Below are positions 33,809 through 64,000 of a DNA stretch of 64,000 nucleotides, in pieces. The notes beneath the pieces are model-generated. The model saw only the letters and a program-made list of their open reading frames with translations. It searched no databases and was not told the origin of the DNA. Both the position numbers and the translations under genes were made by a program. This DNA is from a virus, in IMG/VR virus record IMGVR_UViG_3300015262_000001, positions 164,598-228,597 of that record; one strand, 5' to 3'. Numbering within the stretch: the first letter of the stretch is position 1; every line of letters starts with the position of its first letter.

Positions 33809-36082
33809 TCAGAGATCGCCGTTAGGTTTCAGATCACCGTAGTAGGTGCGAGGGATTACCTTAGGCGGGATCACCGGATCAGCTTCAGGCTCAAGAGCAC
33901 CGTAGTACGTTCCAGGGATCACGTATTCCTCAGGGAAGAGGTCTCCGTAATAGGTTCCAGGAATAACCAAAGGATCCAGCGCACCATCTGGCAACATACG
34001 GAAATAGCTGTTGTCATACAGCTTAAGCGCATACGTTGACAGACTGTTGTTCAGGTTAGTTGGCTTGATAAAGTCATGCGTGATGATATCAATCTTCATC
34101 TCGCTATCAGCCACCAGCACCGGATCCGGATTACTGATGATCGGGATGTTGGCTTCCAGGGCATGGATGGAGTCCATGTTGGAATGCTGGGTAATCATGA
34201 CGTTTTTAAAGTCGCCGTAACTACCGTTACCGACACCCACCCAACGAGAGTCACCTATAAAGGTTTCGTTGATCAGTTCAGTTTGGTCCGTACCGTCATT
34301 GATGTCTTTCACGATATGGATCGTGTAGGACGACAACTCAGACATGATGTCAATCAGATCGCTCTGCTTAACCCGTGTCGACGGTGTCTGGTTGGTATCC
34401 CAGCCGGTAACCCGTTTGAAGATGTCCCAGGAGAAGTTACGCGCCTCTTCGGCAGTGTAATCGGTGAAGTCCAACTCGTAAGCTTTAAGCAGCGAATCGT
34501 AGTCACCATAGCCGGTCAGGTTGATGATACCCGAATCGTACATCAGTTTGCAGCTGTTCTTCACCCGGGCTCTTTTGTTCAGATCGTAGAACTGACTGTA
34601 GAGCTTCTTATGTTTCCACATGGTGCTGTAAACTTCTGTGGCGTACTGGATCAGATAATCCGGGGCCAGGAAGGGGGCTACAGGAAACCAGAGCTTTTGG
34701 ATGTCAGCAGCAACATACGGACGAATGAAATCGGGGCCGCCGATCTCAATGATCTCTTCGATAGTCGGGGCTTTAAGCTTCAGAACGTTATGGTAGTAAG
34801 CCGGTTCGATAACCAAAGGATTTTGCCCCTTGGCGTATTCTACCAGGTACTTCCAAATGTAATAGGCGTCTCCCACGGGCAATCGGTACTGCTTGCCGCT
34901 CTTGGGGTCGACCGTAATCACCTTGCCGTTGAAGACCTTTTTACCTGCCAGATAAATCCACTCGTTGTACACCACCTTCATCAATGTATCGACGTGACGG
35001 TTAGTGTAGTCCATCATGGACGATTCAAGCGCTTTGGTAGGCAACTCAGAGTGAAGGCTGTACCGCCCCTTAACGATGGCATCATCCAGATAGAAATCCG
35101 TCTGATCGTAGTTGTCCTTGGCCATGATCTGTTGCTTCATGATCATAGCCTGGGTGTCAATGAACGAAGCAGTGCGTCCGTAGACCTCTACCAGGTTCAT
35201 TTGCATACGACGGTACAGTGGCGTAGGGGTCAGGTCTTCCAACTGCGTTTCAGTCGACGAAACCATGTCAAACCGAGCAAGAGGAATACTTGCCTTGGTC
35301 AACAGGTTCTTCATCAACTTGTCAAATGTGTACTGCTGACCTGGGTTATTACGTATCCAAGCAATATTACGAAACAACCACATCGTTTGTTCATTGCTGA
35401 GGCTGTTCTTGTATTGCGAGAAATTGCCGAATGAATCGATATGGCTCCAGATGAAGAAATCATGGGTATGACGCGTGTAACAGTCTTCCAGTCGAATGGC
35501 TTCGATGGTACCAATGAGGAAAGCGTAAAGCTTTTCAATCATCCATGGCAGGAACAGGTCATCAGTAACGACATAGTCATTATTGATCGATTGCCTTAGA
35601 TCGCTATTGACAGCCAGCTGTAATTTCGGGAGCAGCTGCTCTTCGTTCCAAAGCACCAGGTTCTTGTTATAGCGCAGAATCTTATAGTCTTTGGCCGCAA
35701 TGGTTTCAGAGTACGGGATCGGTGCAAGTATGCCGTTAATCAAGGCAGTCTGCCCTGGGTATACGTCGGCTAGACGGTTAAACCAATACCCGCCTTTGCT
35801 GTACTCTCGATTTGTTGCGAGGTGCAACTTCAGATTATCTTTGTTGAAAACAATCCGTTCACCAGTATCAATGGAGTTGATCCACATTACTTCATCAGTA
35901 GGGTGGTAATCCCCATTGAGGTTCATGTAATAACGCCATGTCGTTTTGTCCGAAGATACGGAATACCCAGCGTTAGTCAACACCAGGTTATCTCGTTCGG
36001 CCAAGGCCTCGATTTTGATAACCATGGTTCGAACTAGGCTGAAAGTGTCCGAGTGATACTTATCCAGATCGACACTATTCAT
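33809..36082 (-). CDS. Probable virion protein with C-terminal triple repeat, 757 aa
   Basis: Large helical/mixed protein, no signal peptide, no recognised family. The last 60 residues contain three copies of a 13-14 residue repeat: VIPGTYYGDLFPE, VIPGTYYGALEPE and VIPRTYYGDLKPN. The gene diverges from the portal gene: its ATG is 22 bases from the portal start, with overlapping control regions. Context (portal on one side, structural chain on the other) suggests a baseplate or neck component. I cannot assign it to sheath or tube. Confidence 0.75.
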   Translation of the reverse strand: MNSVDLDKYHSDTFSLVRTMVIKIEALAERDNLVLTNAGYSVSSDKTTWRYYMNLNGDYHPTDEVMWINSIDTGERIVFNKDNLKLHLATNREYSKGGYWFNRLADVYPGQTALINGILAPIPYSETIAAKDYKILRYNKNLVLWNEEQLLPKLQLAVNSDLRQSINNDYVVTDDLFLPWMIEKLYAFLIGTIEAIRLEDCYTRHTHDFFIWSHIDSFGNFSQYKNSLSNEQTMWLFRNIAWIRNNPGQQYTFDKLMKNLLTKASIPLARFDMVSSTETQLEDLTPTPLYRRMQMNLVEVYGRTASFIDTQAMIMKQQIMAKDNYDQTDFYLDDAIVKGRYSLHSELPTKALESSMMDYTNRHVDTLMKVVYNEWIYLAGKKVFNGKVITVDPKSGKQYRLPVGDAYYIWKYLVEYAKGQNPLVIEPAYYHNVLKLKAPTIEEIIEIGGPDFIRPYVAADIQKLWFPVAPFLAPDYLIQYATEVYSTMWKHKKLYSQFYDLNKRARVKNSCKLMYDSGIINLTGYGDYDSLLKAYELDFTDYTAEEARNFSWDIFKRVTGWDTNQTPSTRVKQSDLIDIMSELSSYTIHIVKDINDGTDQTELINETFIGDSRWVGVGNGSYGDFKNVMITQHSNMDSIHALEANIPIISNPDPVLVADSEMKIDIITHDFIKPTNLNNSLSTYALKLYDNSYFRMLPDGALDPLVIPGTYYGDLFPEEYVIPGTYYGALEPEADPVIPPKVIPRTYYGDLKPNGDL
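33825..33975 (-). repeat. Triple VIPxTYYGxLxP repeat (C-terminus of the 757-aa protein)
   Basis: Three in-frame repeats at protein level; the DNA copies share CCGTAGTA-type cores separated by acidic/Pro spacers of different length. This is a peptide repeat within a gene, not a mobile element. Confidence 0.85.
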
Positions 36083-36103
36083 AGTTTAACTCGTGAGGTT
36101 TAT

Positions 36104-39100
36104 ATGGGGTTCGAAACGCGCGCAGCGACTAGAGGGAACAAGTCGGTCGACTACACCAGGATTCGTGAGAACATCAAGAGTGTGTCGCCAGCCATTGCAG
36201 CTACCTTGCGCAACGCGACGCCTAAAAATGGGGTCGCTCCTGATCGTGAGGAAGTTGGTGGTACGAAGACCATCAACGAATATAAGCTCAGTCGACTGAG
36301 CAACATTATCAGTAATAACATCAACTCGGCATATGACCTGCGGGCCATTACACCGATGATTGATAAGGCCAACTTGATCTGGAACACGATCATTCTGTAC
36401 CCTAACGGGAAACAGGACAAGATGTTGACCTACGATACCCAGAGCACGAAAATTAAAAACGCGGCTCTGCACACCAGCCTGCTGGCCATCTGGGACGATT
36501 ATTACACCAATGACTATAAGATCGAGTCGCTTTTAAAGAAGATGCTCGACGATATCATGTGGAATACCGGGTCCTACGCGATCTTTAACCTGAGCCGTCC
36601 AGGCTTGGATTACTTGATCAACGGCTCCGAAGTTGACCCTTCCAAACGGACGGGTAACGAGGATTACCTTAGGGCCAAAGGTGAACTGGAGCGTGAGTTC
36701 ATTCAGGTCGATGGCAAGACCAAGATCAAGAACAAGGGTCGCTTTGTCCGTAACCCTTATGCGGCTAAAACAGCTGCTGCTGGATCTGTCAGTGGTTTGG
36801 AAGCTTTGTTTACCACGGGTGCCGATTTTGCTGAAGAAGAGTTCCCGATCTTCGATCCGGAAGAGGACAAAGAAAACAACTGGGGCATCACCATCACCGA
36901 TAACCCGGCGGTGCTGTACCTCCAGAAGTTCCAGGAGGCCAAGCGTGACCGTGACATCAAATCGGTAATGGGTGCAGAGAGTTTTGATAACATCATCTCT
37001 TCTGCAATGAAGTCACAGAAAACCCGTGACGACGAAGCGGCTAAGGCTCAAGAGGACGAGGACAAGAAGGGCGGTAAGGATAAGAAGCCTGCAAAGGCGA
37101 CTAAAGATAAGCCCGACAGTGCCACTACTCAGAACCTGACTGAAGACCAGTTGAACAACCTGAACGCTTCTGTGTTCAAGTCGCGCAACATTCGTACTCA
37201 GTCGTTGCAGTTCATCAAGTCTAATGACTCGTTGAGCGTTGCGCCTTACGGTCGTGGTCTGAGCTGGCACATTCCTTCTGAAGCAATCTTCCCGATCCAC
37301 TTCAACGGCAGTAACGGCAAGATCGATGACTACATCATCCTGCTGGATCCAGAGACCGGTGCGTTCCTCAAGAACACTGACGACCCAGAGTTCTACCAGT
37401 CGCTGGCGAAGAATAAGGACAGCATCACCAACAAGAACAAGATGGGTAGTGAGAACTCGCTCATCTCCAGTTTGCGTACGGTGCAGTCCGGTAAGCCTTG
37501 TGACTTCGACATGTCTGAGTTTGCGGATATGGCTGAGAAGAGCATTGTCCGTCAGTTCATCTCTTCTGTTTATAGCGATAAGGGTAATAGTATCAGCATT
37601 ACCCTGGATGAGGAGGTCAACAAGATCTTCCTGTCGCGTATCTTCAAGAAGCAGGGTGTGCGCTGTCTGTATGTGCCCGGCGAGGCTGTCTCGTACGGCG
37701 CCATCAAGTACAACCGTCTGGGTGTGGGTCAATCCCTTACTCAAGCGGCGAAGATGCACATCGCTCGTCTGGCGGCCTATGACGTCGCTGATGCACTGGC
37801 CAACCTGGAAGCGGCTCAACCTCATACCGAGATGGTAATCAACATCGAGAAAGAGGATGCCGATCCGGAGCAAACCATTGCGGTTGCACGGGCTACCTTC
37901 TTTGACACTAACCCTAAGCTACACTCCATCCTGTCTACGGCCCAGCTGTCGGTTCCTCAGGTAGTGGATGCATTGCGGGAAGCGTCTCTGTCGGTTAAGG
38001 TGAATGCGGGTGACAACGTTCACTTGCCTACGCCGGATATCAGCACCCAGGGTAAACAGAAGGATAACTTCAAACCTGTTGACCAGGAAAGCCGTGACGC
38101 AGTAATGAACTCCATCTCCAACTACTTCAACCTGCCCCGTGCATGGCTGGACGTAGCGGATGATCAGAACAACTTCAAGATTGAAGCGGTTACTGAGTAC
38201 GAGATGGTGTTTAACCAGGCGATCAACTGGCAGGAAATGATCTGCGACTTCTTGATTGACTTCATGCGCAAGCATACCCGAGTCAACGGTCCTCTGATGC
38301 AAGACCTTGTTCAGTGTATTCTGGACAACAAGAAGCTGTGGAAGCCTGACAGTAAAGATGTATTGGAAGGCAGCGATGAGGAAAAGGTCAAGGTTATCTT
38401 GGCAGACTTCTTTACCTCGATTTACGTGTACCTACCAGTACCTACCAGTACCGAGTCGACTAACAAGCTGAAGGATAGCCTGGAAGCCGTAACAGCGCTG
38501 GTAGCGTCTTGGGAAGAGGCTGCGGGTAACAACGGTGTCCTGCCTCAGATCTTGAAGGCGCTGAACATCAATGATGAAGACTTCACTGCTGAAGAGATCA
38601 AGTCCATGGTCAAATCAGCGTTGACGTCGGAAGCATTCCGACGGTTTAACCTGCCGATGCCGTTTGATGACATTGTTAACGAAGGTAAAGGTGGTGGTAT
38701 TGCATCGTTTGTACAGCAGATGATCCACCAGCGTGTCAACACTGCAACCTTTGTGGCTGATCTCATCGAGGGGATTACCGACTCCAACAAGAAACTCCAG
38801 AAACAATACGTGGATAAGTTGGCGAAGAAACTTGCGCCTCCTGAACCAGAAGTTGTTGAAGGCGAGGAAGGTGGTGGTGATGGGCTTAATACTGATGATA
38901 GCCTTACTGGCGGATCTTCTGAGGATGATCTGGGCGCGGGTACGGGTGCGGACGATCAAGACATTGATGCTCCTATCAGTGATACTGATGCTCCTGTCGA
39001 TGCTGATCTGGACACAGATACACAGCCTGTGGAAGATGACACCCTTCCGCCGGATGGCGATAAACCAACTGGGGATAAAGATCCAGGCGGTAAAGCGTTC

Positions 39101-39130
39101 AATCCGTTCAGTGCTAATAAAGACGAATAA
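36104..39130 (+). CDS. Portal protein, 1008 aa
   Basis: Forms the dodecameric DNA entry ring at one capsid vertex. Matches the phiKZ-type portal in its very large size and its order: a helical N-terminus; an acidic/Lys-rich insert around residues 300-360 (KAQEDEDKKGGKDKKPAKA); a central domain (GLSWHIPSEAIFPIHFN, KKQGVRCLYVPGEAVSYGAI); a stem-like region (NYFNLPRAWLDV); and an acidic Asp/Gly/Thr tail. GAES near residue 290 (SVMGAESFDN) is a candidate prohead-protease site and repeats a site in the capsid protein. The start at ATG 36104 has GTGAGG 5 bases upstream; the longer ATG at 36053 lies inside the divergent gene. Family assignment is from size and context plus motif impression. Confidence 0.8.
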   Translation: MGFETRAATRGNKSVDYTRIRENIKSVSPAIAATLRNATPKNGVAPDREEVGGTKTINEYKLSRLSNIISNNINSAYDLRAITPMIDKANLIWNTIILYPNGKQDKMLTYDTQSTKIKNAALHTSLLAIWDDYYTNDYKIESLLKKMLDDIMWNTGSYAIFNLSRPGLDYLINGSEVDPSKRTGNEDYLRAKGELEREFIQVDGKTKIKNKGRFVRNPYAAKTAAAGSVSGLEALFTTGADFAEEEFPIFDPEEDKENNWGITITDNPAVLYLQKFQEAKRDRDIKSVMGAESFDNIISSAMKSQKTRDDEAAKAQEDEDKKGGKDKKPAKATKDKPDSATTQNLTEDQLNNLNASVFKSRNIRTQSLQFIKSNDSLSVAPYGRGLSWHIPSEAIFPIHFNGSNGKIDDYIILLDPETGAFLKNTDDPEFYQSLAKNKDSITNKNKMGSENSLISSLRTVQSGKPCDFDMSEFADMAEKSIVRQFISSVYSDKGNSISITLDEEVNKIFLSRIFKKQGVRCLYVPGEAVSYGAIKYNRLGVGQSLTQAAKMHIARLAAYDVADALANLEAAQPHTEMVINIEKEDADPEQTIAVARATFFDTNPKLHSILSTAQLSVPQVVDALREASLSVKVNAGDNVHLPTPDISTQGKQKDNFKPVDQESRDAVMNSISNYFNLPRAWLDVADDQNNFKIEAVTEYEMVFNQAINWQEMICDFLIDFMRKHTRVNGPLMQDLVQCILDNKKLWKPDSKDVLEGSDEEKVKVILADFFTSIYVYLPVPTSTESTNKLKDSLEAVTALVASWEEAAGNNGVLPQILKALNINDEDFTAEEIKSMVKSALTSEAFRRFNLPMPFDDIVNEGKGGGIASFVQQMIHQRVNTATFVADLIEGITDSNKKLQKQYVDKLAKKLAPPEPEVVEGEEGGGDGLNTDDSLTGGSSEDDLGAGTGADDQDIDAPISDTDAPVDADLDTDTQPVEDDTLPPDGDKPTGDKDPGGKAFNPFSANKDE
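38431..38452 (+). repeat. Short tandem repeat in the portal gene
   Basis: CCTACCAGTA occurs twice in a row, followed by CC, giving VPTSTES in the protein. Possible site of replication slippage; in-frame length changes are not expected from a 10-base unit. Confidence 0.7.
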
Positions 39131-46953: not shown

Positions 46954-46994
46954 GGTTTAAAAAATTACAACAAGAAATCAAAATGCAACATAGG

Positions 46995-47026
46995 CCCCCT
47001 CCCCCAGCCGAAGCCAGAGGAGGGGG
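46995..47026 (-). terminator. GC-rich hairpin downstream of the capsid gene
   Basis: CCCCCTCC and GGAGGGGG stem with a 16-base loop. It is followed on the minus strand by CCTATGTTGCATTTTG. It lies about 100 bases past the capsid stop, after the structured element at 47048-47120. Confidence 0.65.
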
Positions 47027-47047
47027 TTATGCTTGGATCCCTGTGAA

Positions 47048-47120
47048 GGGGTTACCGCAGCACTACTACACCACGGAGCCTACTCAGGGTCTAGCACCCC
47101 GTAGTAAGCTGCCGCAACCC
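47048..47120 (-). other. Structured 3' leader/UTR element after the capsid gene
   Basis: On the minus strand GGGTTGCGGCAGC and an almost complementary GCTGCGGTAACCC enclose a second stem (TTACTAC/GTAGTAG) and a third small stem around GGGTGCTAGACCC. Two mismatches occur in the outer stem. It begins 3 bases after the capsid stop codon. It could protect the abundant capsid mRNA, act as a terminator together with the next hairpin, or be a small RNA. A tRNA was considered and not supported. Confidence 0.55.
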
Positions 47121-47123
47121 TTA

Positions 47124-49304
47124 TTACGGGTTTACTGGTGCGTTACCTTCAGTAGCGGTAATCAGGGCGTCCATACCTTCAACCTGAACGATCTGTTTAG
47201 CCAGCTTGGTCAGCAGACCGTCATCACCCAGGAACTCGTGAGCATCTTCGATGATCAGCGAGCCGATGATAACGTTCAGTGGCCAGTGACGGTAGGTAGG
47301 CATGGTCATGACCACACCGAAGTCCTGTTGGTCACGAGTCACGTTACCCTGCACGACGATGTTCTCTTTCGAGATGTTCACGCCGATGCCGCCCAGTGGG
47401 TTGATGAAGTCGTTGGTGGACGTGTTCTTCGGAACGATCAGCAGTTGGCCGATTTGGCTGTCGAAGTTGGTCTCAACGATTTGCATCGTGGTCACTGGAC
47501 CCAGGGAACGAGCGTCGCCCGAACGCATCAGGAAGCGCGCCAAGTTCTGGTGAACCACAACGGTCCATTCGATCTTGTCAGTGCCGCCGTATTCAGCGAT
47601 CGCAGCCAGACCCGACTTGGTGTTCAGGGCAGCGGTGATGTCGCTCAGTTCGTTCAGGAACACAGCAGCAACGTTGTCGAACACGTCTGCCGAGTCCAGG
47701 GACGATACACGGTCCTTGATCTTGAACGAACGGTTGATGGCCGCAGCCGAAACGTAGTGCTGACCAGGCAGGACGTTGGAGCCCTGTTGGTTGCCAACAA
47801 CTGGAGAGCCGTCGATCGAGGTGATGTACTTCAGGTGTTCCTGAGCCACATCGAACGCTTTCTTCGAGCACTGGTTGTTGATCGCGATCGACATCTGCTG
47901 AATCGCGAAGTCCAGGGAACCCTGGTTAACGTCGTCAGCCGATACTGGGTACTTGACCGAGACCGGGCTGTTGCGACGAACGGACAGACGCTTGTCGGCA
48001 TCGAACACTTCAATGCGGTAGCCGAAGTTGCCGCGGGAGGTGTTGGAGACGTTGCCGCCCAGGTCGATACCGGTAACAGCACCGGCAGTCAGGGACTTGA
48101 TCAGGCCCTTCTGGGTTGCGTCAGCTTTGTGCATGGTGATAACGTTGCCGTTAGTCAGGTCACGCAGGCCGTGCACGGTCACTTGACCGGAGTTCAGACG
48201 CAGCTCGTTGCTCTGGCGCTGGTAGTTGCCGTTCAAGCTGATGTTCAGCAGAGGCTCGTAACCGGCGGTCTTGAACGAAGCGAACATGGTTTCGCCAACG
48301 GTAGCACCGTCTTTGTCCAGAACGCTGAAGCCTGGGAAAGCGCGCAGGTGCAGGTTGACTTCACGGTCGTCGGACGACTGGCCTTGGCTGGTAGGGCCGA
48401 AGGTGTTGTTCGAGATCGAGTTGGTGTTGATGAAGAAGTTGATCGCGGTAGCGCCCAACTTAGCCGAAGCCAGAACTTCTTTAACGACCAGCGAGTTGGA
48501 CTCGAGTTCGTCAGTGCTGGTCCATGGACGCTGGCCAGGAACCTGGGTCAGAGCCAGATAGTTCGGAATGGTGTTCGGAACTTTCAGGAACTGAGTAGCG
48601 TGGGAGCTACGGTTGTAGGCGTCTGCTTCCGGGTAGGTGGCAGTGCCGGCAGCGATGATCGCGGTATCAACGAAGAAATCGCGGTTGTCATCGTTGGCGT
48701 CTTCTGGGTAAACCGGATGCACGGCCAGGACTTCGTCCTTGAACATGTCGCCAGTACGCAGCAGGCCGAAGATCGGACGCAGTTCGGAAGCCGACTGCCA
48801 TGCCGAGTTACCGTAGGCGTACGAACCGATACCCGCAGCGCGGACTACCAGGTTTGCGCCTTCGTCTTCGTAACGAACGGTGATGGTGGAGAACAGCGCT
48901 TCAGCGCCAGGAGTTTGCAGGTGCGACTGAGCGTTCAGCGTCAGGTTCGCGGCCTTGATGTCCATCTCGCTGCCTTTGAAGTTCTGGAGCGAGAAACCCT
49001 CGATACCAGTTACTTCAGCCAGAGCCTTGGCCGCTTCGTTCATGATCGCCATTTCGCCGCCAGGAACAGAGGCGCGATTCAGCGAACCGGAGAAAGCGTC
49101 AAACTGCTTTGGAGTGACAGATTGGAACAGCGTGGTCAGTTGATGGCTTTCAACGCCGGCGATATTTTTAACGCCTTCGCTGAAGAGGTCGAAGCTCTCA
49201 GCACCGATCACGGAGCTGAGTTGGTTGTTGCCCAGGGCGGTACGAACGGCGCTGAAGAGGTTTCCGGTATTCTTCAGAGACGCGGTGACTTGTTTAAAGG
49301 CCAT
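47124..49304 (-). CDS. Major capsid protein with N-terminal propeptide, 726 aa
   Basis: Builds the icosahedral shell (HK97 fold inferred). The size and long N-terminal propeptide match phiKZ-type capsid proteins. The first 135 residues contain several G-x-E sites: V32-I-G-A-E36, GVE52, GIE102, and TPGAE at 133-135. Cleavage by the phage prohead protease after one of the later sites, most likely E135, would leave a mature chain starting ALFSTITV. The gene has GC-rich, uniform codons and is followed by a structured 3' region, both fitting the most abundant protein of the particle. The protease itself is not in this window. Confidence 0.85.
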   Translation of the reverse strand: MAFKQVTASLKNTGNLFSAVRTALGNNQLSSVIGAESFDLFSEGVKNIAGVESHQLTTLFQSVTPKQFDAFSGSLNRASVPGGEMAIMNEAAKALAEVTGIEGFSLQNFKGSEMDIKAANLTLNAQSHLQTPGAEALFSTITVRYEDEGANLVVRAAGIGSYAYGNSAWQSASELRPIFGLLRTGDMFKDEVLAVHPVYPEDANDDNRDFFVDTAIIAAGTATYPEADAYNRSSHATQFLKVPNTIPNYLALTQVPGQRPWTSTDELESNSLVVKEVLASAKLGATAINFFINTNSISNNTFGPTSQGQSSDDREVNLHLRAFPGFSVLDKDGATVGETMFASFKTAGYEPLLNISLNGNYQRQSNELRLNSGQVTVHGLRDLTNGNVITMHKADATQKGLIKSLTAGAVTGIDLGGNVSNTSRGNFGYRIEVFDADKRLSVRRNSPVSVKYPVSADDVNQGSLDFAIQQMSIAINNQCSKKAFDVAQEHLKYITSIDGSPVVGNQQGSNVLPGQHYVSAAAINRSFKIKDRVSSLDSADVFDNVAAVFLNELSDITAALNTKSGLAAIAEYGGTDKIEWTVVVHQNLARFLMRSGDARSLGPVTTMQIVETNFDSQIGQLLIVPKNTSTNDFINPLGGIGVNISKENIVVQGNVTRDQQDFGVVMTMPTYRHWPLNVIIGSLIIEDAHEFLGDDGLLTKLAKQIVQVEGMDALITATEGNAPVNP

Positions 49305-49380
49305 GACTCGAATCCTTTACTGAGGATGTGAACAAATATATTTGTCTGTGTATTAGCGCTACACATAAAATACAGTGAAG

Positions 49381-56848: not shown

Positions 56849-57547
56849 TTAATTCCAGCGAACAGGCACAACCAGACCACTCGAAAACTGAAGAATAGCC
56901 AGATTAGAAATACCGTCATTCAACTGACTGACAACGATCGCTTCCTGGAAGTCTTCTGCTGCAAGTACCAGCTTGAACCCAAGGGAGTTAACGAAGTCCG
57001 ACAGCATCTCGGCGTACTCTTGTGAGACACCGTCTTTAACCGGATCATCCACCAGGAACACTTTACCCGCCAAGGCAATGCGAACACGCTGCTCTTCCAG
57101 GTCAACAGCAATACATTCCTGGGAGCGCACAGTCGCGTCTTTGTTCTTGACGGTAAAGATCAATACACCGCTCAGACTGATGCTGGTATCCAGCATTGGT
57201 ACCGAGACTTGGTACTGGTCCTTACCAGCAAACGTAACCAGAGTGTCTTCAACGTCGTAATCCACCTTATCCAACAGGTGGAGCTTGTACGTGTCAGACA
57301 GTTCCTGAATGACCAGGCCCAGAGGATCGCCTTCACGAGCCGAAACTTCAGGCGCCCTATTAACCATGACACGCAGGAGATTCCCCTTGCTCATCTTGGC
57401 CTTTTGGGTAATCCCGTTCTTTTCAACGGTAAAGGCGGCAACGGATTCGGATTCGGATTCTGCACTCAGAACCGTGTAGCCTTCTGGAAGCTGGTGCTTG
57501 ACACGCTCCAGAACTTCCGGGTGAACGTTTTCCAAGGCCATTACCAT
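56849..57547 (-). CDS. Hypothetical protein, 232 aa, late
   Basis: The stop of the upstream internal head protein overlaps the start ATG (TAATG). Near the N-terminus is LSAESESESVAAF, an Ser/Glu alternation with several potential S-x-E protease sites. The rest is beta-rich. No family recognised. Its position directly after a protein cut at G-T-E suggests it is also a head component, but this is inference. Confidence 0.7.
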   Translation of the reverse strand: MVMALENVHPEVLERVKHQLPEGYTVLSAESESESVAAFTVEKNGITQKAKMSKGNLLRVMVNRAPEVSAREGDPLGLVIQELSDTYKLHLLDKVDYDVEDTLVTFAGKDQYQVSVPMLDTSISLSGVLIFTVKNKDATVRSQECIAVDLEEQRVRIALAGKVFLVDDPVKDGVSQEYAEMLSDFVNSLGFKLVLAAEDFQEAIVVSQLNDGISNLAILQFSSGLVVPVRWN

Positions 57548-58971
57548 TACTCCTTCTTAGCGGTTTTGTCTTCTTTCGGTTCCACAGCAGGGAAGATTTT
57601 GGTGTTGATTCCGCTAACCGCTTTGCGAATGCCAGACACCAGTTTCTTGTGGGCGGCTACTTTCTCTTTAACCTGTTTAACCGCTTCCTTTGCAGCAGTG
57701 ATACTGTCCTGTGTAGACTTCTTGGCAGTACCGACAACTTCCTTGTTCTTCTCGTCTTTGCCCGACACGGCACCAGCTGCTGTTTTAAGAGCGGCCAGTT
57801 TCTCCTGAGTCAGTTTCATGAGTTCGTCCAAACCAGCGGCAGGACCCTGTTGCTTTTGCAGCAAACCCAGGAGTTTGTCAAGGCAAGACGATGCATCAGA
57901 CTTGCTGTTAAGATTACCCACGATAGTACTGAACGCACCAGAAGGATCCGCTTCAGCTGCCAGCTTCACCAGTCCCGCTTTAGCAGCTGGGTTGATCTGA
58001 TCACCACTGCCTTCTTTAGAGGATGCCAGGTCTTTCTTGTTCGCTTCTGCCGATTCTTTTACGGCTTTGCCATCCGCTTCAGAGTCGTTGGAAGTGAACC
58101 ATTCCTTGATGGCGCCAAAAGACTCTGTGATCATACTCCAGGCCTTCATTGCCATATCCTTGATTCCGTCAAGGATCGCGCCTTCCGTGCCTTCTACAGC
58201 ACTCATACGCACGTTACGGGCATTAGCCACACCGATGAGGTAGTTAGCCTCAAAACTGTTTACACCACCCAGGTAGTCTTCCATGCCCTGAATCAGTTGT
58301 AGGGTGTGATCTGCCACACAGCCACAATCGCAGTCAGGACCCTTGCGACATTCTTCTGGCTCGTCAAAATCAACAGCTACCGCTTCAGGCAGGTCTTCGA
58401 GTTGTGCAGGAGAGAATTCTTCCACACCCATGAACATACCCAGTCGGCTGGTAACGAATACGTCGATGATGTTCAACACCTTCTCAGCGTATTCAATAGC
58501 CCGGATATGTACCTGAGTACCGACGAGGTTTGGTTCTTCATGACCCTCGTAGACTTCGATGAAGTACCGGAGCTTTTTGTGTGCGAATTCGATCCAGTTG
58601 GTGACCGAACTACCTGACATGTCCTCCGACGACTTATTACCCAATGCACAGACCTGCATGGCCACAATGCGCTCTTGGGTAAAGTTACCGTTATGAGCAT
58701 CATCCAGCAATGCGTTCAGGTACTGGTTAACCGGCCAGTTAACTTCCAGTTCACTGCCGTCGTAGTAAGCCAGTCGGTCTTCGAGTGCAGCCACGATGCT
58801 GAACAAACGTTCCTTTACAGAACCTTCTTCGTTGCTGTCGTGATCTACCACGTAGTCCAGACCCATGGAGCGGAGGAGTTCAACCATTACCGGATTCTTT
58901 TCAGCATCCAGTTGTCCAGCCTTACCGGTCATCATCAAACAGACCAGTCCCAGCTCAAAATACAAATTCAT
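57547..58971 (-). CDS. Inner-body head protein, 474 aa
   Basis: Candidate internal protein packaged in the head and processed. After an N-terminal region of about 260 residues comes SAVEGTEGAILDGIKDMAMK, in which G-T-E followed by an amphipathic helix matches a module in four other genes here. The C-terminal 200 residues are Lys/Ala/Ser-rich and helical, with long coiled-coil stretches. CRKGPDCDCGC near residue 209 is a four-Cys cluster. The start has GAGGAG 6 bases upstream. In phiKZ several such proteins form the inner body that organises DNA (established); assignment here is by composition and sites. Confidence 0.75.
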   Translation of the reverse strand: MNLYFELGLVCLMMTGKAGQLDAEKNPVMVELLRSMGLDYVVDHDSNEEGSVKERLFSIVAALEDRLAYYDGSELEVNWPVNQYLNALLDDAHNGNFTQERIVAMQVCALGNKSSEDMSGSSVTNWIEFAHKKLRYFIEVYEGHEEPNLVGTQVHIRAIEYAEKVLNIIDVFVTSRLGMFMGVEEFSPAQLEDLPEAVAVDFDEPEECRKGPDCDCGCVADHTLQLIQGMEDYLGGVNSFEANYLIGVANARNVRMSAVEGTEGAILDGIKDMAMKAWSMITESFGAIKEWFTSNDSEADGKAVKESAEANKKDLASSKEGSGDQINPAAKAGLVKLAAEADPSGAFSTIVGNLNSKSDASSCLDKLLGLLQKQQGPAAGLDELMKLTQEKLAALKTAAGAVSGKDEKNKEVVGTAKKSTQDSITAAKEAVKQVKEKVAAHKKLVSGIRKAVSGINTKIFPAVEPKEDKTAKKE

Positions 58972-58981
58972 TGCCTACTCC

Positions 58982-59467
58982 TCACAGATACTTGATGATC
59001 ACGGTGCCACGGTAGTACGTGGCCCGACGAGCCGTTACGTGAAGATAACCTTCACTCGTACCCAGCTCTACTTCAAATCGGGTCAGGTCGCTCAAGCCAA
59101 CTAACCGCAACCAGTTAAAGAACAGGATGCTTAGTTCATCAGCTACGCCAGTTTGATCAATGGCCGACAGAGTAATGATACTTTCCTCCACACGACTGTC
59201 TACCAGCTCGTCCAGGGACTGCAAGTTGACCGACTCAGGCAGACCAAAGGTCAAACCACTGATGTCCTGAGGGATACCTTTAAACAGTTCCCCCAGGTCA
59301 ACCTTCTCAATCATTAAACCAGCACCAACGACACCTGGCTCAACATAGCTGAACACGTTATCGCTAACTGACCGTCCTGTACCAAAACGTGGATTCAATC
59401 CATCAATACCCTGTTGCTCCATAGCTGCGGCAACCAACAAAGTTTTGTTAAAGCAATTCAAGCGCAT
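58982..59467 (-). CDS. Hypothetical protein in inner-body cluster, 161 aa
   Basis: Small protein between two internal head protein genes with gaps of 10 and 6 bases. Has G-L-P-E-S near residue 74 and ELGTSEGYLHV, possible protease-site look-alikes, but no amphipathic helix follows. No family recognised. Probably a virion component by location. Confidence 0.65.
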   Translation of the reverse strand: MRLNCFNKTLLVAAAMEQQGIDGLNPRFGTGRSVSDNVFSYVEPGVVGAGLMIEKVDLGELFKGIPQDISGLTFGLPESVNLQSLDELVDSRVEESIITLSAIDQTGVADELSILFFNWLRLVGLSDLTRFEVELGTSEGYLHVTARRATYYRGTVIIKYL

Positions 59468-59473
59468 AATGGA

Positions 59474-60532
59474 TTACCCTTTGGTTTCTACGCTGCTTTC
59501 AACAATGGCAGTATGCGAGTTGTAGACTTTAAACAGCAGGGTCTCCAGCGCTTTAATGCCGGCCATGCTGTTACGCACAATCTCTTGCAGACTGCCGGTG
59601 AGTTGTTTGGCAACTGCCTCGTTGTTTACTTCAACCGTATTGGCGAATTCCAAGCTGTTGTTGAGGCCCTTAATGATCACACTCTCCAGATCAGTCGATT
59701 TCTCGATTGTACCCTGGAAGACAGTGTTCATATTAGTCAACTCTTTAGCCAGCGCACGGGTAGTGGTTTCGCTGCTGATAAAGCCGGCGTTCTTATCGGA
59801 TTCCAGCAGATCAGGATCGGCCTTCAGCGACAGCTTACCGTGAGCAGTGATAGACACGTAGGTGCCACCCACAAACAACGCTGGGTCCTTACCGAAGATG
59901 GTCACGAGTGAAGCATGGTGAGTCTTGAAGAGCTTCTCCAGATCTTCCTTGCCCTTGCTCAGTTGACCTTTGCTGATGTAGACCGATTCAGCTGCCTTGA
60001 GTGTCTTCTTGATCTCTTCGATGTACTTAACAGCCTTTGCATTAGCCGCTTTCCAATCGTCCCCAGCCTTGTTCATCCAGTCCAGGTTGGCAGGAATCTT
60101 GGCCTTGCTGGCCCACACACTGGTATAACCAGCAGGGTAATGCGTGAAGTGTTTCTTGACCCCGTTTTTGTCTAACTTCTCGAGGAGGTTTTTGTTCTTG
60201 CGAGCGGCAACTTCTTTCTTGCCAGTAAAGAAGCTGAACACCCACTTGAAAAAGTTCTTCACAGCGGTAATCAAAGAACCTATCATGTCCTTAATCCAAC
60301 TCATGAACCCTTCAGTGCCTTGAACACTGTTGAGATCCTGTTGGCGTGGGATATGCGAGAAGATGTATTGATAGTAGAGGGATTCGGTACCCGATACCTT
60401 GTCGTATTCGTCCGACAGGTCATTGACGGTGTCGTCTGTGGCATCCACAACGCTCTCAGGATTCTCGGCGTTGTAGAGTGCTTCAACAGTAGGCGTATTG
60501 ATAAAACGTCGAGCAAGCACTGGCTGCGTCAT
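59474..60532 (-). CDS. Inner-body head protein, 352 aa
   Basis: Contains KVSGTESLYY and, further on, SVQGTEGFMSWIKDMIGSL, both G-T-E sites. The second is followed by a hydrophobic amphipathic helix (VKNFFKWVFSFFTGKK) and a Lys-rich helical tail, the same order as in the other cluster members. The start at ATG 60532 (MTQPVLARRF) is preferred to ATG 60604, which would lie in the terminator region. Expected to be cut by the prohead protease and packaged with DNA; by homology of pattern, not by known sequence match. Confidence 0.75.
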   Translation of the reverse strand: MTQPVLARRFINTPTVEALYNAENPESVVDATDDTVNDLSDEYDKVSGTESLYYQYIFSHIPRQQDLNSVQGTEGFMSWIKDMIGSLITAVKNFFKWVFSFFTGKKEVAARKNKNLLEKLDKNGVKKHFTHYPAGYTSVWASKAKIPANLDWMNKAGDDWKAANAKAVKYIEEIKKTLKAAESVYISKGQLSKGKEDLEKLFKTHHASLVTIFGKDPALFVGGTYVSITAHGKLSLKADPDLLESDKNAGFISSETTTRALAKELTNMNTVFQGTIEKSTDLESVIIKGLNNSLEFANTVEVNNEAVAKQLTGSLQEIVRNSMAGIKALETLLFKVYNSHTAIVESSVETKG

Positions 60533-60584
60533 GGTGAAAGTACCTGTTAAAAAGGATATGTAACAAAACCTATAGCATCCCTTG

Positions 60585-60638
60585 AAAAAACAAAATGCGG
60601 CCATAAGACTACTAAGGGCGATTGCTCGCCCTTAGTAG
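60585..60638 (-). terminator. Intrinsic terminator after the 422-aa gene
   Basis: CTACTAAGGGCGA and TCGCCCTTAGTAG form a perfect stem around TTGC (60609-60638). It is followed on the minus strand by TCTTATGGCCGCATTTTG and T6. Confidence 0.85.
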
Positions 60639-60669
60639 CTACCTTACGGTGTTACAGCAACATCACGCC

Positions 60670-61938
60670 TTACAGAGCGATGTGAGCAGCAACGCAGTCC
60701 AGAGCGGCAGCAGCGCCGTTCATCATGAACTTGGTCATGCTGGTAGTCACGCTGGAAGTCGAGCTGTAAACAGCTTTAACCAGGTTAACCTGGCCATTGA
60801 CTTCCGACGCTTTGTCGCTTTCGCCAGCTTTGATGGCGTTCAGGGAACCAACAACGCGGTCACGCTCAGCAGCGCTGAAAGCCTTGGCCACTTTGGCGCT
60901 ACGCAGGTTTGCACCCATGCCACGCACGTCAGAGATCTCTTTCAGGAGAGCCGATTTGTCGTGCTTGGCTTTGACGTCGGAACCGCCGGTCAGCTTCTTG
61001 GCTTCAGGGTCTTTCATGACCACGAACTTCAGGGAGCGGGCAGCGTTGGCGGCGTCAGCCATGGTTTTGATGTCGCTGTCGACGTAGGACGCCTGGATGC
61101 GAACACCGTTGATCACGCCGATCAGGACGTCGTGGGTACCGGCTTTCTTCTCGTTGTACTTGCCGGCTGCCTTGGCATCCGACTTGATAGCCGAGATCAC
61201 GCCAGCGTAAGCCGACTTGAAGTCTTCCAGGGTGATACCGGAAACGTTCTTGCCCAGCTCGGTCAGCTTGGCGATCGCGTTCATCGAGCTTTCGAAGCCT
61301 TTAGCCTTGAAGCCGGCCAGGCCGCCTTTGGCGTAGTCGATGTACACGTTCCAGGAGCCGAGCTTGATCAGCTCTTTGACCTTGGCGCCTTCTTCCAGGC
61401 GTTTCTTCAGCTGGTCGCAACGCTTCTCGATGGCCGCGGCCTTGTCGAAGATCGACACGAAGAAGTTGATCACGCCGTTGAAGATGTGCTTGATGAACTC
61501 GATGGCCTTACGACCGTATTCCTTGATCGAGTCCATGATGCTTTCCATGCCCTGACGAGCATACATCTGAGCGGTCGAAGCGTCGGTGATGGATTCAGCA
61601 CCAACGCGGTCGCCCTGGATGTTCGCGCCCAGCTTGTTACCGAGCTTCACGCCGCGGTTGTACAGGTTGGCGAAAGCCAGGGAGTTGAAGTTGCCGGAGT
61701 TGATCAGGGATTCCATGCCTTCAACGACTTCGGTCGCTTCTTCGACAGCTTCTTCCAGGTCGTCGACCTTGGCAACCAGTTGTTCAACCTGGTTGGATTG
61801 CTCTTCGATCGCTACGGTCACTTCGGCGATTTCGGTTTTGATGACGTCTTCGACAGCGTCAACCACTGCGCCGCTACCTTCGCCGCCCAGTTCCAGATCT
61901 TCGGCGCCGGCGTACATGTCAAGAATGTTGATGGTCAT
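60670..61938 (-). CDS. Abundant inner-body head protein, 422 aa
   Basis: Strongly GC-ended uniform codons point to very high expression. The N-terminal 140 residues are acidic with a coiled coil (EEQSNQVEQLVAKVDDLEEA). Candidate cleavage sites are VVEGMESL, RVGAESITD and YARQGMESIMD. The last is followed by the amphipathic segment KEYGRKAIEFIKHIFNGVIN typical of the cluster. The remainder is Lys/Ala-rich and helical. Removal of an acidic propeptide from a basic helical mature protein would fit DNA-binding inside the head. AAGGA lies 8 bases before ATG 61938. Confidence 0.75.
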   Translation of the reverse strand: MTINILDMYAGAEDLELGGEGSGAVVDAVEDVIKTEIAEVTVAIEEQSNQVEQLVAKVDDLEEAVEEATEVVEGMESLINSGNFNSLAFANLYNRGVKLGNKLGANIQGDRVGAESITDASTAQMYARQGMESIMDSIKEYGRKAIEFIKHIFNGVINFFVSIFDKAAAIEKRCDQLKKRLEEGAKVKELIKLGSWNVYIDYAKGGLAGFKAKGFESSMNAIAKLTELGKNVSGITLEDFKSAYAGVISAIKSDAKAAGKYNEKKAGTHDVLIGVINGVRIQASYVDSDIKTMADAANAARSLKFVVMKDPEAKKLTGGSDVKAKHDKSALLKEISDVRGMGANLRSAKVAKAFSAAERDRVVGSLNAIKAGESDKASEVNGQVNLVKAVYSSTSSVTTSMTKFMMNGAAAALDCVAAHIAL

Positions 61939-61991
61939 TGCGTGTATCCTTTTTCGTTAACGAAGGAAAATTGTGTGTTTAATTAAACGGT

Positions 61992-63005
61992 TCAAGCGAA
62001 AACACCAAGCACACCATGAATGTACCTGTCGGTGTAGCTGACCACCCGAGGAGTGAATCCGCTATAGAATGCCAACGCATTGGCCTCCCCAGAGAGGATC
62101 TTCTCAGCCTCCGACATAGCGCTCGAACTAACCTTATCCAGCTTGCTCAGGTTAGAGTCGACAGACTTAACCATCTCCGACCAGCTCTTGAGAAAGCTCA
62201 AGTAACTGTCGTAAGACGACTTCAAGCGCTTATGCATAGAGTTGATCTTGTCCAGCTTATTCAACAGAGCGTTGACTTCAGACTTGGACAAAGTCACGGT
62301 TGAGCCCGCTTCGGCAGGCGCGTCACCGCCTATAACATATTTCGGAGACTTGCCGTCGCCGTAAACACATTCCCAGACCTTGCCACCTGGCAGCGCATCC
62401 GAGTACGTCGTAGTACCCTTTGAATGCGGTAACTTAAACGATGGATACTCCACAGCCTCAAACTCCTCCACAATAGCGAAGATGTTTTCAGACGATGAAG
62501 CACCCTTGAGTTTGCGGACGACGATCAGCTGTTTGTCCAGGTAACTCAGAATCTCTTTGCTGTGCTTATCCAGTGCATCCAACGAGCTCAGCAGAGTGTC
62601 CATATCATGACTGATATGGCCAATGTCGCCATTGGCAGTGATCAGAGCAATCGTGGTTTTGCTGAGGTTCAACTCATGATCCTCGATCTTGCTGAAGTTT
62701 TGCGTCAGCTTACGGATCAAGGTATCGTTGTCGCTGAAGGCACGGTACAAGCCAGCACCTGCTGCGCCAAGGGCCTTACCAAACAGGTCGATAGTTTTAC
62801 CACCAACCCACTTGCTAACTTCAAACATCCCGGAGCCAAGCTCCTTGACGCTCTCCATAAAGTCCTCGTTACCTTCAACGCGGATCTTTAGCCGATGTGG
62901 GTCATTGGCCAGTTGACGACCCAGAGCCCACAACTCATTCTCGACGCACAGCCCCTCGATACGGTTCTCCAGGCAATTGCGATACAGCTGCTTTGTACTG
63001 CTCAT
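61992..63005 (-). CDS. Inner-body head protein, 337 aa
   Basis: RVEGNEDFMESVKELGS near residue 45 is the probable processing site; V-E-G-x-E is shared with the 474-aa protein. An amphipathic Gly-rich segment follows (DLFGKALGAAGAGLYRAF). The C-terminal part is helical with Lys/Ser/Leu heptads. Short gaps to both neighbours place it in the same operon. Same inferred role as the other cluster proteins. Confidence 0.7.
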   Translation of the reverse strand: MSSTKQLYRNCLENRIEGLCVENELWALGRQLANDPHRLKIRVEGNEDFMESVKELGSGMFEVSKWVGGKTIDLFGKALGAAGAGLYRAFSDNDTLIRKLTQNFSKIEDHELNLSKTTIALITANGDIGHISHDMDTLLSSLDALDKHSKEILSYLDKQLIVVRKLKGASSSENIFAIVEEFEAVEYPSFKLPHSKGTTTYSDALPGGKVWECVYGDGKSPKYVIGGDAPAEAGSTVTLSKSEVNALLNKLDKINSMHKRLKSSYDSYLSFLKSWSEMVKSVDSNLSKLDKVSSSAMSEAEKILSGEANALAFYSGFTPRVVSYTDRYIHGVLGVFA

Positions 63006-63016
63006 GACCAGCCTCC

Positions 63017-64000
63017 TTACGGCGTGTTGGCCTTAACCGAGAGGTTCGACAGCTCGATCAAGCCATGGATAACCAAGGTCAGGTAACTGGTCAGAGCGGC
63101 CCGCAGAGTCAGCAGCTCGATCTGGTTACGACGAACGATCGACGAGAAGGCACTGAGCACCTTGTCTTTCAGTTCATCGTCCATCTGCGACTCGTAGATG
63201 CCTTTGGCAACATCGTTGTAATCGCTGTCCGCCAGCTTGTACTTATCGCCCGCTTCGAAGACCTTGCTCCATTCCTTCAACAGTTCTTTCAGGTGTTTTG
63301 CAATCACCTTGATCTGCTGAGTCGACAGGCTCTTCACTTCATTACCCAGTTTCGGGTAAATCACTTCAGAACTGTTTTCGAAACCAGTCAGCTCTTCGTT
63401 GAGGTAGATGTAGAGGAACTGCTCGACATCCTCGGGGGTGTGCATGCGGTAGTTCGGATGACTCTGACGGATGTCAATGAAGTACGCCCCGCCCATCAAC
63501 TCAACCGACTGTTTCGCAGTAACACGCCCAGTAGTGAAGTCTTTGTTTGGTTTGTTGCATTCCTTGAACGGAGTCGATGGCAACTGCGACGGCAGCATGA
63601 GAAAGCGGTCCAACCCCAGTGCCTGATCCAATCCTGCAAACCCACCGAAGTAACTCAGGGCAGCATTCATGTTGTTTTTGCTGTTCAGGTAGTAGTTGGA
63701 GCTTACAGCCGAGATAGTGCGACTCAGCTTACTGACATCACCCGTCCAGTCACCGCTGATCTGGCCGTTAACCTTAAACAGGTTAAACAGACGAGCACCC
63801 AGCAACAGGTTCTCGCGACCTTCATCAAACTTTGGAGTGGCGTCGATACCACGTTCCAGCGCATCCACGGCATCAACCAGACTGTCGTGGTTCTGAGTGA
63901 AGACGATGTACGCTTCCTTGAAACCATCGTTGATGCGGACTACCACTTCCTTGGACTTACGGAAGAAGTCACCCAGGAAGCTCTCACAGCCCATCAGACG
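63017..64000 (-). CDS. Inner-body head protein, N-terminus beyond window edge
   Basis: The frame is open through base 64000 and the upstream codons (reading LMGCES) belong to it, so the true start is outside the window. M-G-C-E-S-F-L-G at the edge resembles the processing sites of the other cluster members and is followed by an amphipathic basic helix (DFFRKSKEVVVRINDGFKEA). At least 328 residues are visible, alpha-helical in character. An ATG at 63994 could be read as a start, but it sits inside the motif and lacks a ribosome site in the visible bases. Confidence 0.7.
   Translation of the reverse strand, partial: RLMGCESFLGDFFRKSKEVVVRINDGFKEAYIVFTQNHDSLVDAVDALERGIDATPKFDEGRENLLLGARLFNLFKVNGQISGDWTGDVSKLSRTISAVSSNYYLNSKNNMNAALSYFGGFAGLDQALGLDRFLMLPSQLPSTPFKECNKPNKDFTTGRVTAKQSVELMGGAYFIDIRQSHPNYRMHTPEDVEQFLYIYLNEELTGFENSSEVIYPKLGNEVKSLSTQQIKVIAKHLKELLKEWSKVFEAGDKYKLADSDYNDVAKGIYESQMDDELKDKVLSAFSSIVRRNQIELLTLRAALTSYLTLVIHGLIELSNLSVKANTP

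Follow-up and report, generated by a model that had tools for sequence, protein, structure and literature searches.

Predicted G-x-E cleavage sites and helix-first mature bodies in inner-body proteins of a phiKZ-like jumbo phage

Introduction

Cutting and injection have been published for the inner-body proteins of phage phiKZ, with gp93, gp94, gp95 and gp97 injected into the host and S/A/G-X-E given as the protease motif (PMC10449902). In Salmonella phage SPN3US the published motif is A-X-E (PMC5694885), and mass spectrometry (MS) mapped the mature N-termini of gp53, (E)GWKETLKDLFER, and gp54, (E)SLWDDIK, as well as a cut at ALE-111 of gp47, ahead of a hydrophobic helix (PMC10052503, PMC5694885). 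The SPN3US protease gp245 cleaves itself after AQE-203 (PMC10052503). A functional parallel, with no sequence homology claimed, is provided by the internal proteins of T4, in which capsid-targeting sequences are removed at L/I-X-E by gp21, a prohead protease of related type (PMC9026906, PMC5694885); the T4 propeptides have 10-20 residues, compared with 47-263 in the proteins described below. Here we analyze a stretch of 64,000 nucleotides (the window), positions 164598-228597 at the right end of the 228,597-base virus record IMGVR_UViG_3300015262_000001. Five of its proteins, W474, W376, W422, W337 and a fifth one cut by the window edge, are very probably prohead-protease substrates.

The source is a phiKZ-like jumbo phage. 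The record (G000:C1) has ends identical over 123 bp, G000:C1:1-123 and 228475-228597 (window 63878-64000), and because of this overlap it is probably a complete assembly closing to a circle. The minus-strand genes at approximately 51.9-64 kb, which continue across the join, have the same order as the head blocks gp57-gp78 of Erwinia phage RisingSun and gp52-gp71 of Pseudomonas phage EL, and the order also matches phiKZ 084-103 and SPN3US 45-64. Direct DNA matches were sought in a phage collection and none was found; the phage has no close DNA relative there. Read in the direction of transcription, the genes have the order fifth protein (RisingSun gp66), W337 (gp67), W422 (gp68), W376 (gp69), W161 (gp70) and W474 (gp73), and the module genes among them share one direction and small spacing. 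EL gp54 and gp61-gp66 and RisingSun gp59 and gp66-gp73 are direct orthologues with the same G-x-E sites, the five proteins being 27-47% identical to theirs; the RisingSun block has two extra paralogues, gp71 and gp72.

Results

Conservation of the cleavage sites

An earlier note on the window had quoted five G-x-E strings and proposed for the proteins carrying them a common layout of propeptide, cleavage site, helix and body. The five strings were all located on the minus strand, their Glu being E263 of W474, E98 of W376, E132 of W422, E47 of W337 and, in the full-length fifth protein, E116. When 12-15 non-redundant orthologues per protein, EL and RisingSun included, were aligned, each of the five sites was G-x-E in 100% of the sequences (E263 of W474 in 12, the W376 site in 14), while P4 and P2 vary, so that every propeptide boundary carries a conserved motif of the S/A/G-X-E type. 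For W422, 17 relatives 50-100% identical to it were taken from viral contigs. Further conserved G-x-E sites lie upstream in four of the five proteins (W474, W376, W422 and the fifth protein, the last at E96); the earlier note had overlooked these.

The conservation is concentrated on the motif. Invariant Glu make up 20 of the 157 in the five proteins, and they comprise 11 of the 21 in G-x-E vs 9 of the other 136 (Fisher p = 1.3e-6). C-terminal to the last site none of five G-x-E is invariant, compared with 11 of 16 elsewhere (p=0.012). The motif occurs 1.9-3.8 times per 100 aa in the propeptides, 0-0.9 times in the mature parts and 0.41 times in other window proteins. In this phage the consensus is mostly V-x-G-x-E|[SGAD]-[LFIYV]. 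Conservation was used as the measure because the motif count over all genes is weak: a relaxed scan of all called genes gave 23 matches vs 13.8 expected.

Two gene boundaries affect the propeptide lengths. The gene of the fifth protein spans the record join, with its N-terminal 110 residues at the record start, and an intact 437-aa orthologue is present in L008. A near-absent propeptide in this protein was considered and rejected as a window-edge artefact, the full propeptide having 116 residues. For W376 the probable start is residue 25 of the long open reading frame (ORF), position 60532, where several orthologues also begin; the resulting form has 352 aa, and E98 becomes its E74.

Protease, capsid protein and portal

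The same phage encodes a prohead protease of the gp175/gp245 type (phrog_3014, E=1.3e-67). The PF03420 profile of T4-type proteases matched neither this phage nor the controls, and SPN3US gp245 and phrog_3014 were used instead. Near its C-terminus the protease carries AGLE-207 and GTE-250, in the region that matches the SPN3US gp245 self-cut.

Within the first 135 residues of the major capsid protein G-x-E occurs six times, and neither A-x-E nor S-x-E is found there; the rest of the chain has a single G-x-E. The RisingSun and EL capsid proteins are nearly alike in motif, with one S-x-E in RisingSun, whereas SPN3US has A-x-E and phiKZ is mixed. From these sequences we infer that Gly is essentially the only P3 residue used by the protease of the EL/RisingSun-like clade. 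A similar difference is seen in the inner-body proteins, where all conserved sites of this phage have Gly at P3 and the assigned phiKZ sites mostly Ser.

The helix after the cut

The best 18-residue helix within 36 residues after each cut was scored against 14,045 positions in other window proteins. A helix after every site, as first proposed, is borne out for W474, W376 and W422, which fall between the 98.5th and 100th percentiles (Table 1), and is weak for W337 (85th) and the fifth protein (91st). Two copies encoded outside the window, N504 and N357, reach the 99.8th and 100th percentiles. Both hydrophobic moment and hydrophobicity after the cut are high in these five strong cases, and not in W337 and the fifth protein. 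The ranking is stable across orthologues, the strong helix of W474, W376 and W422 being kept in 94-100%; the 36 residues after the W376 cut contain a median of 8 Phe/Trp. The same scoring found no such helix after the cuts of the capsid protein, the likely portal protein and the gp50-type protein N407.

A parallel is found in SPN3US. Among its nine MS-mapped maturation sites, gp47, gp53 and gp54 score 0.998-1.000, and gp225 alone of the others reaches 0.95; in gp53 and gp54 the mature chain, by its published N-terminus, starts exactly with the strong helix. The SPN3US ejection proteins gp53 and gp54 (paralog family A) and gp47 resemble the proteins studied here in being cut, at the A-X-E sites of gp245, directly before a helix that is strongly hydrophobic or amphipathic. 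Another common trait is that a propeptide is cut several times. The phiKZ proteins gp93-gp96 have the same cut-then-helix layout at S-x-E, the phiKZ positions being our own assignment. As judged from these predicted and mapped sites, the cut in ejection-type substrates tends to lie immediately ahead of an amphipathic helix, in contrast to shell proteins. The layout appears to be kept across EL-, RisingSun-, SPN3US- and phiKZ-type phages while P3 shifts among Gly, Ala and Ser.

In the AlphaFold2 model of W376 (pTM 0.75) the propeptide is predicted with very low confidence, and a helix of 50 residues begins at residue 73, immediately preceding the predicted P1 Glu. Most named Foldseek matches of the W376 and W422 models belong to phiKZ-like phages and are internal head, virion or uncharacterised proteins. 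Against the PDB the W376 model had no significant match (a phiKZ capsid chain at rank 15, E=0.8, was not used as evidence). No solved structure was found for the window protein itself, and a profile search for structures returned only chance matches to coiled-coil proteins and hemagglutinin.

Relationships among the proteins

Profile-profile comparison of the cut-plus-helix regions gave more than 50% probability for 9 of 21 pairs and more than 90% for 7, whereas the 63 shuffled and 30 body controls never exceeded 6% (0/93 above 50%). With the cut site omitted, 6 of 21 pairs remained above 50%. The strong members are W474, W376, W422 and N357, the W474 region being homologous to the other three, and N504 is next. 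A module profile run over all 708 ORFs, the check suggested in the earlier note, separated eight genes (one in two pieces) at E<=2.5e-11 from all else at E>=1.0; the eighth, absent from the training set, was found at E=1.7e-15. In leave-one-family-out searches W474, W376 and N357 were recovered at E of approximately 1e-5 to 1e-6, and N504 and W422 at 0.02-0.06; the fifth protein was lost.

These results give the proposed single repeated module, with at least five paralogues, a different outline. It is statistically supported for W474, W376, W422 and three genes outside the window that had been overlooked, and is weak in two of the five original members. A single strong helix module common to all five was rejected, since W337 and the fifth protein do not fit. 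As the module profile results indicate, the unity seen earlier holds for the cut site and in part for the helix. W337 and the fifth protein share the cut site with the others and PF12699 with W422, and W337 aligns in register with W376 and W422 at 25-28% (hhalign).

PF12699 (curated cut-off 27) gave 119.5 bits for W422, 35.9 for W337 and 108.4 for the fifth protein (136.7 for its full orthologue), and no match at E<=1 for W376 and W474. The latter two resemble W422 by module profile, W376 also by fold, and phrog_35992 matches W474, W376 and W422 in the module region, cross-linking them. The four places matched by PF12699 in this phage correspond to three genes, one of them split by the record ends. 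Bodies of this family in three of the five proteins recall the phiKZ internal head proteins, which belong to it in part. The closest arrangement is that of phiKZ gp92-gp97 and gp162-163 (protease gp175), with the same block, order and propeptide-cut-helix-body layout. Unlike SPN3US, with Ala at P3 and two PF12699 paralogues, this phage has three PF12699 genes plus module-only relatives.

Charge of propeptides and bodies

Propeptide charge per 100 residues is -8 to -14 in W474, W376, W422 and the fifth protein and zero in W337, and the propeptides are poor in Lys. The net charge changes from -28 in the propeptide to +5 in the mature part of W474 and from -19 to +13 in W422; mature W376 has +9. 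The Lys-rich bodies described earlier were recovered in W474 (15.6% K), W376 and W422, together at 12-16% K, and less so in W337 (9.3%) and the fifth protein (7.5%), the window median being 5%. The basic mature body of the three former proteins fits, by composition, an association with DNA.

Other features

Coordinates of the features are collected in Table 1. Within the head block, W161 lacks G-x-E and is not a member of the cut-plus-helix family. An extended motif near the N-terminus is present in two other proteins of the record, which are possible further protease substrates. The LMGCE site, with Cys at P2, is common to the fifth protein (window 63983-64000) and N407, at residue 165 of the latter. 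In the W474 propeptide, approximately at residues 208-225, there is a Cys cluster, CRKGPDCDCGCVADH, which EL gp66 keeps as CAGGDTCECGCVLDH and which was not seen in RisingSun gp73; it looks like a metal-binding patch within a segment that would probably be removed. Long antisense ORFs cover the capsid gene and W422 and would be chosen by a naive longest-ORF caller; the greedy gene set of the motif scan wrongly took them over both genes.

Table 1. Positions of the module genes, their predicted sites and other features (window coordinates unless a prefix is given)
Feature	Position	Strand	Remarks
W474	57547..58971	-	processed internal head protein; orthologue of RisingSun gp73 / EL gp66; predicted cut after E263 (AVEGTE|GAILDG)
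W474 cleavage site and mature N-terminal helix	58063..58197	-	98.5th percentile; median 0.982 in 16 orthologues
W474 second G-x-E, E231	58279..58281	-	in propeptide; 100% conserved in 12 orthologues
W161	58982..59467	-	head-block neighbour; RisingSun gp70 / EL gp65; outside module family
W376	59474..60604	-	processed internal head protein; orthologue of EL gp64 / RisingSun gp69; predicted cut SVQGTE|GFMSW
W376 cleavage site and mature N-terminal helix	60191..60325	-	99.8th percentile
W376 second G-x-E, E74 of long ORF	60383..60385	-	in propeptide, KVSGTE|SLYY; 100% conserved
W422	60670..61938	-	phiKZ-like internal head protein (PF12699); orthologue of RisingSun gp68 / EL gp63; predicted cut after E132 (ARQGME|SIMDSIK)
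W422 cleavage site and mature N-terminal helix	61414..61557	-	100th percentile; >=99.9th in 19/19 sequences
W422 invariant G-x-E, E115	61594..61596	-	in propeptide; orthologue alignment
W422 invariant G-x-E, E76	61711..61713	-	in propeptide; orthologue alignment
W422 invariant G-x-E, E13	61900..61902	-	in propeptide; orthologue alignment
W337	61992..63005	-	PF12699 protein; orthologue of RisingSun gp67 / EL gp62; short propeptide; predicted cut after E47 (RVEGNE|DFMES)
Fifth protein	63017..64000	-	C-terminal 327 of 437 aa; PF12699; orthologue of RisingSun gp66 / EL gp61; predicted cut after E116 (RLMGCE|SFLGDFF)
N504, module gene outside window	G000:C1:7800-9314 (L025)	-	in SPN3US gp47 position; RisingSun gp59 type
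N357, module gene outside window	G000:C1:13175-14248 (L025)	-	resembles RisingSun gp71/gp72
Eighth module gene, outside window	G000:C1:113442-114476	+	same two-site pattern
Major capsid protein	47124..49304	-	phrog_3231; motif counts and alignment to SPN3US/phiKZ
Likely portal protein	36053..39130	+	by position, as RisingSun gp88 / SPN3US gp81; motif at E203, E250, E309
Prohead protease	G000:C1:76431-77237		
Chimallin (nuclear shell) homologue	G000:C1:40395-42260	-	
N407	L025:1832-3055	-	gp50 type
Extended motif, residue 44	G000:C1:53637-55016	+	SVTGAE|ALLSG
Extended motif, residue 31	G000:C1:103708-104541	+	TVQGFE|ALSLG
Antisense ORF over capsid gene	46983-49331	+	782 aa
Antisense ORF over W422	60622-61986	+	454 aa

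Discussion

The assignment of the five proteins as prohead-protease substrates follows from the invariant sites, the occurrence of the same motif in the capsid protein, likely portal and protease, and the MS-mapped counterparts in SPN3US. The layout of propeptide, cleavage site, helix and body put forward in the earlier note is well supported by the conservation, by the motif shared with the capsid protein and protease, and by the mapped sites of gp47, gp53 and gp54. With high probability the five proteins, out of eight such in the genome, are precursors of phiKZ-type inner-body or ejection proteins, cut at G-x-E to leave helix-first mature bodies. We infer cleavage at these sites, DNA association and a role of the helix from the sequences. 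The scheme itself is already known for the phiKZ group; what is added here is the restriction of the motif to Gly and the helix-first arrangement seen across paralogues.

The proposed process would include several steps. Each precursor would be synthesised with a propeptide at its N-terminus that carries at least one V-x-G-x-E|[SGAD]-hydrophobic site, four of the five propeptides being acidic and poor in Lys, and would be targeted to the prohead. There the gp245/gp175-type protease would cut the precursors, and the propeptides would be chopped into small pieces that leave the head. The remaining helical body would open with a helix, strongly amphipathic in W474, W376, W422 and the outside copies and more weakly so in W337 and the fifth protein. 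For the three strong window members the cut would also turn the chain from acidic or neutral to basic, and this shift would therefore suit retention with the packaged DNA. The mature proteins would then take their place in the inner body or inner shell, and some of them at least would be ejected into the host.

Proteomic data for RisingSun support a place in the virion for gp66 (low confidence), gp68, gp73 and the N504-type gp59. MS of the lysate detected gp59, gp63, gp66 (low confidence), gp68, gp71, gp72 and gp73, with gp68, the W422 orthologue, second only to the capsid protein (PMC6034870). Several points weigh against the interpretation. The RisingSun orthologues of W337 (gp67) and W376 (gp69) were undetected in the same lysate (PMC6034870). 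W337 and the fifth protein have neither a strong helix nor a basic mature body (net charge -4 and -5), and the leave-one-out profile misses the fifth protein and reaches W337 only at E=0.11. The capsid cut position is uncertain from the alignment, being E102 or E113, and confidence in the AlphaFold2 model of W422 is low (pTM 0.58). The cuts in this phage are sequence predictions.

For the exposed helix both a shell and a membrane role are possible, since gp93 is present in a solved capsid entry and injection has been published. In the first case, whose chances we consider about even, the amphipathic helix is an assembly element with no membrane role, which packs within the body, oligomerises in the inner body or docks on the inner capsid face. 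The icosahedrally averaged phiKZ capsid, PDB 8y6v, indeed includes gp93, which carries the annotation of a PF12699-group internal head protein; approximately ten minor capsid proteins, most of them on the inner side, have been described (PMC13282480), and AlphaFold2 places the segment at the start of a long uninterrupted helix within a helical protein. However, the hydrophobicity and amphipathicity of these helices are unusual, no such helix follows the cuts of cleaved shell-type proteins (capsid, portal and the gp50/N407 type), and in SPN3US gp47, which corresponds to N504 by position, a transmembrane helix is predicted at this place.

The other putative role, interaction with the host membrane after injection, is on balance unlikely. 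It agrees with the restriction of the helix statistics to ejection-type proteins and with the injection of the phiKZ relatives (PMC10449902). The record also encodes a homologue of chimallin, the nuclear shell protein expected in Chimalliviridae (nucleus-forming phages), with 27% identity to ZPAH34 gp031 (E=9.7e-39), which itself matches the nuclear shell protein phrog_4795; phiKZ chimallin as a query had no match in the record, and a closer chimallin relative was needed. Because of this gene the phage is probably vesicle- and nucleus-forming, and the mechanism by which the early phage vesicle forms is stated as unknown (PMC12908238). An amphipathic helix would, however, be equally expected in a helical bundle, and at least part of gp93 is ordered in the capsid. 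A more tentative and doubtful extension is that prohead proteolysis arms an entire group of ejected inner-body proteins within the virion by unmasking membrane-active N-terminal helices, which after injection would insert into the inner membrane of the host and contribute to forming or coating the early vesicle.

It is very improbable that the G-x-E strings are ordinary fold-conserved residues unrelated to the protease: the motif is short enough to arise by chance, as its background frequency and the relaxed scan illustrate, but P3 and P1 are invariant while P4 and P2 are free, the sites are confined to the N-terminal side of the bodies, the same motif recurs in the unrelated capsid and protease propeptides, and the corresponding SPN3US sites were mapped by MS.

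In summary, the analysis lists exactly which mature ends are predicted for inner-body proteins of EL/RisingSun-like jumbo phages, in which the cleavage signal would be essentially G-x-E across capsid, protease and ejection proteins. With such a list, the function of the injected proteins and the origin of the membrane-bound early vesicle become testable questions.

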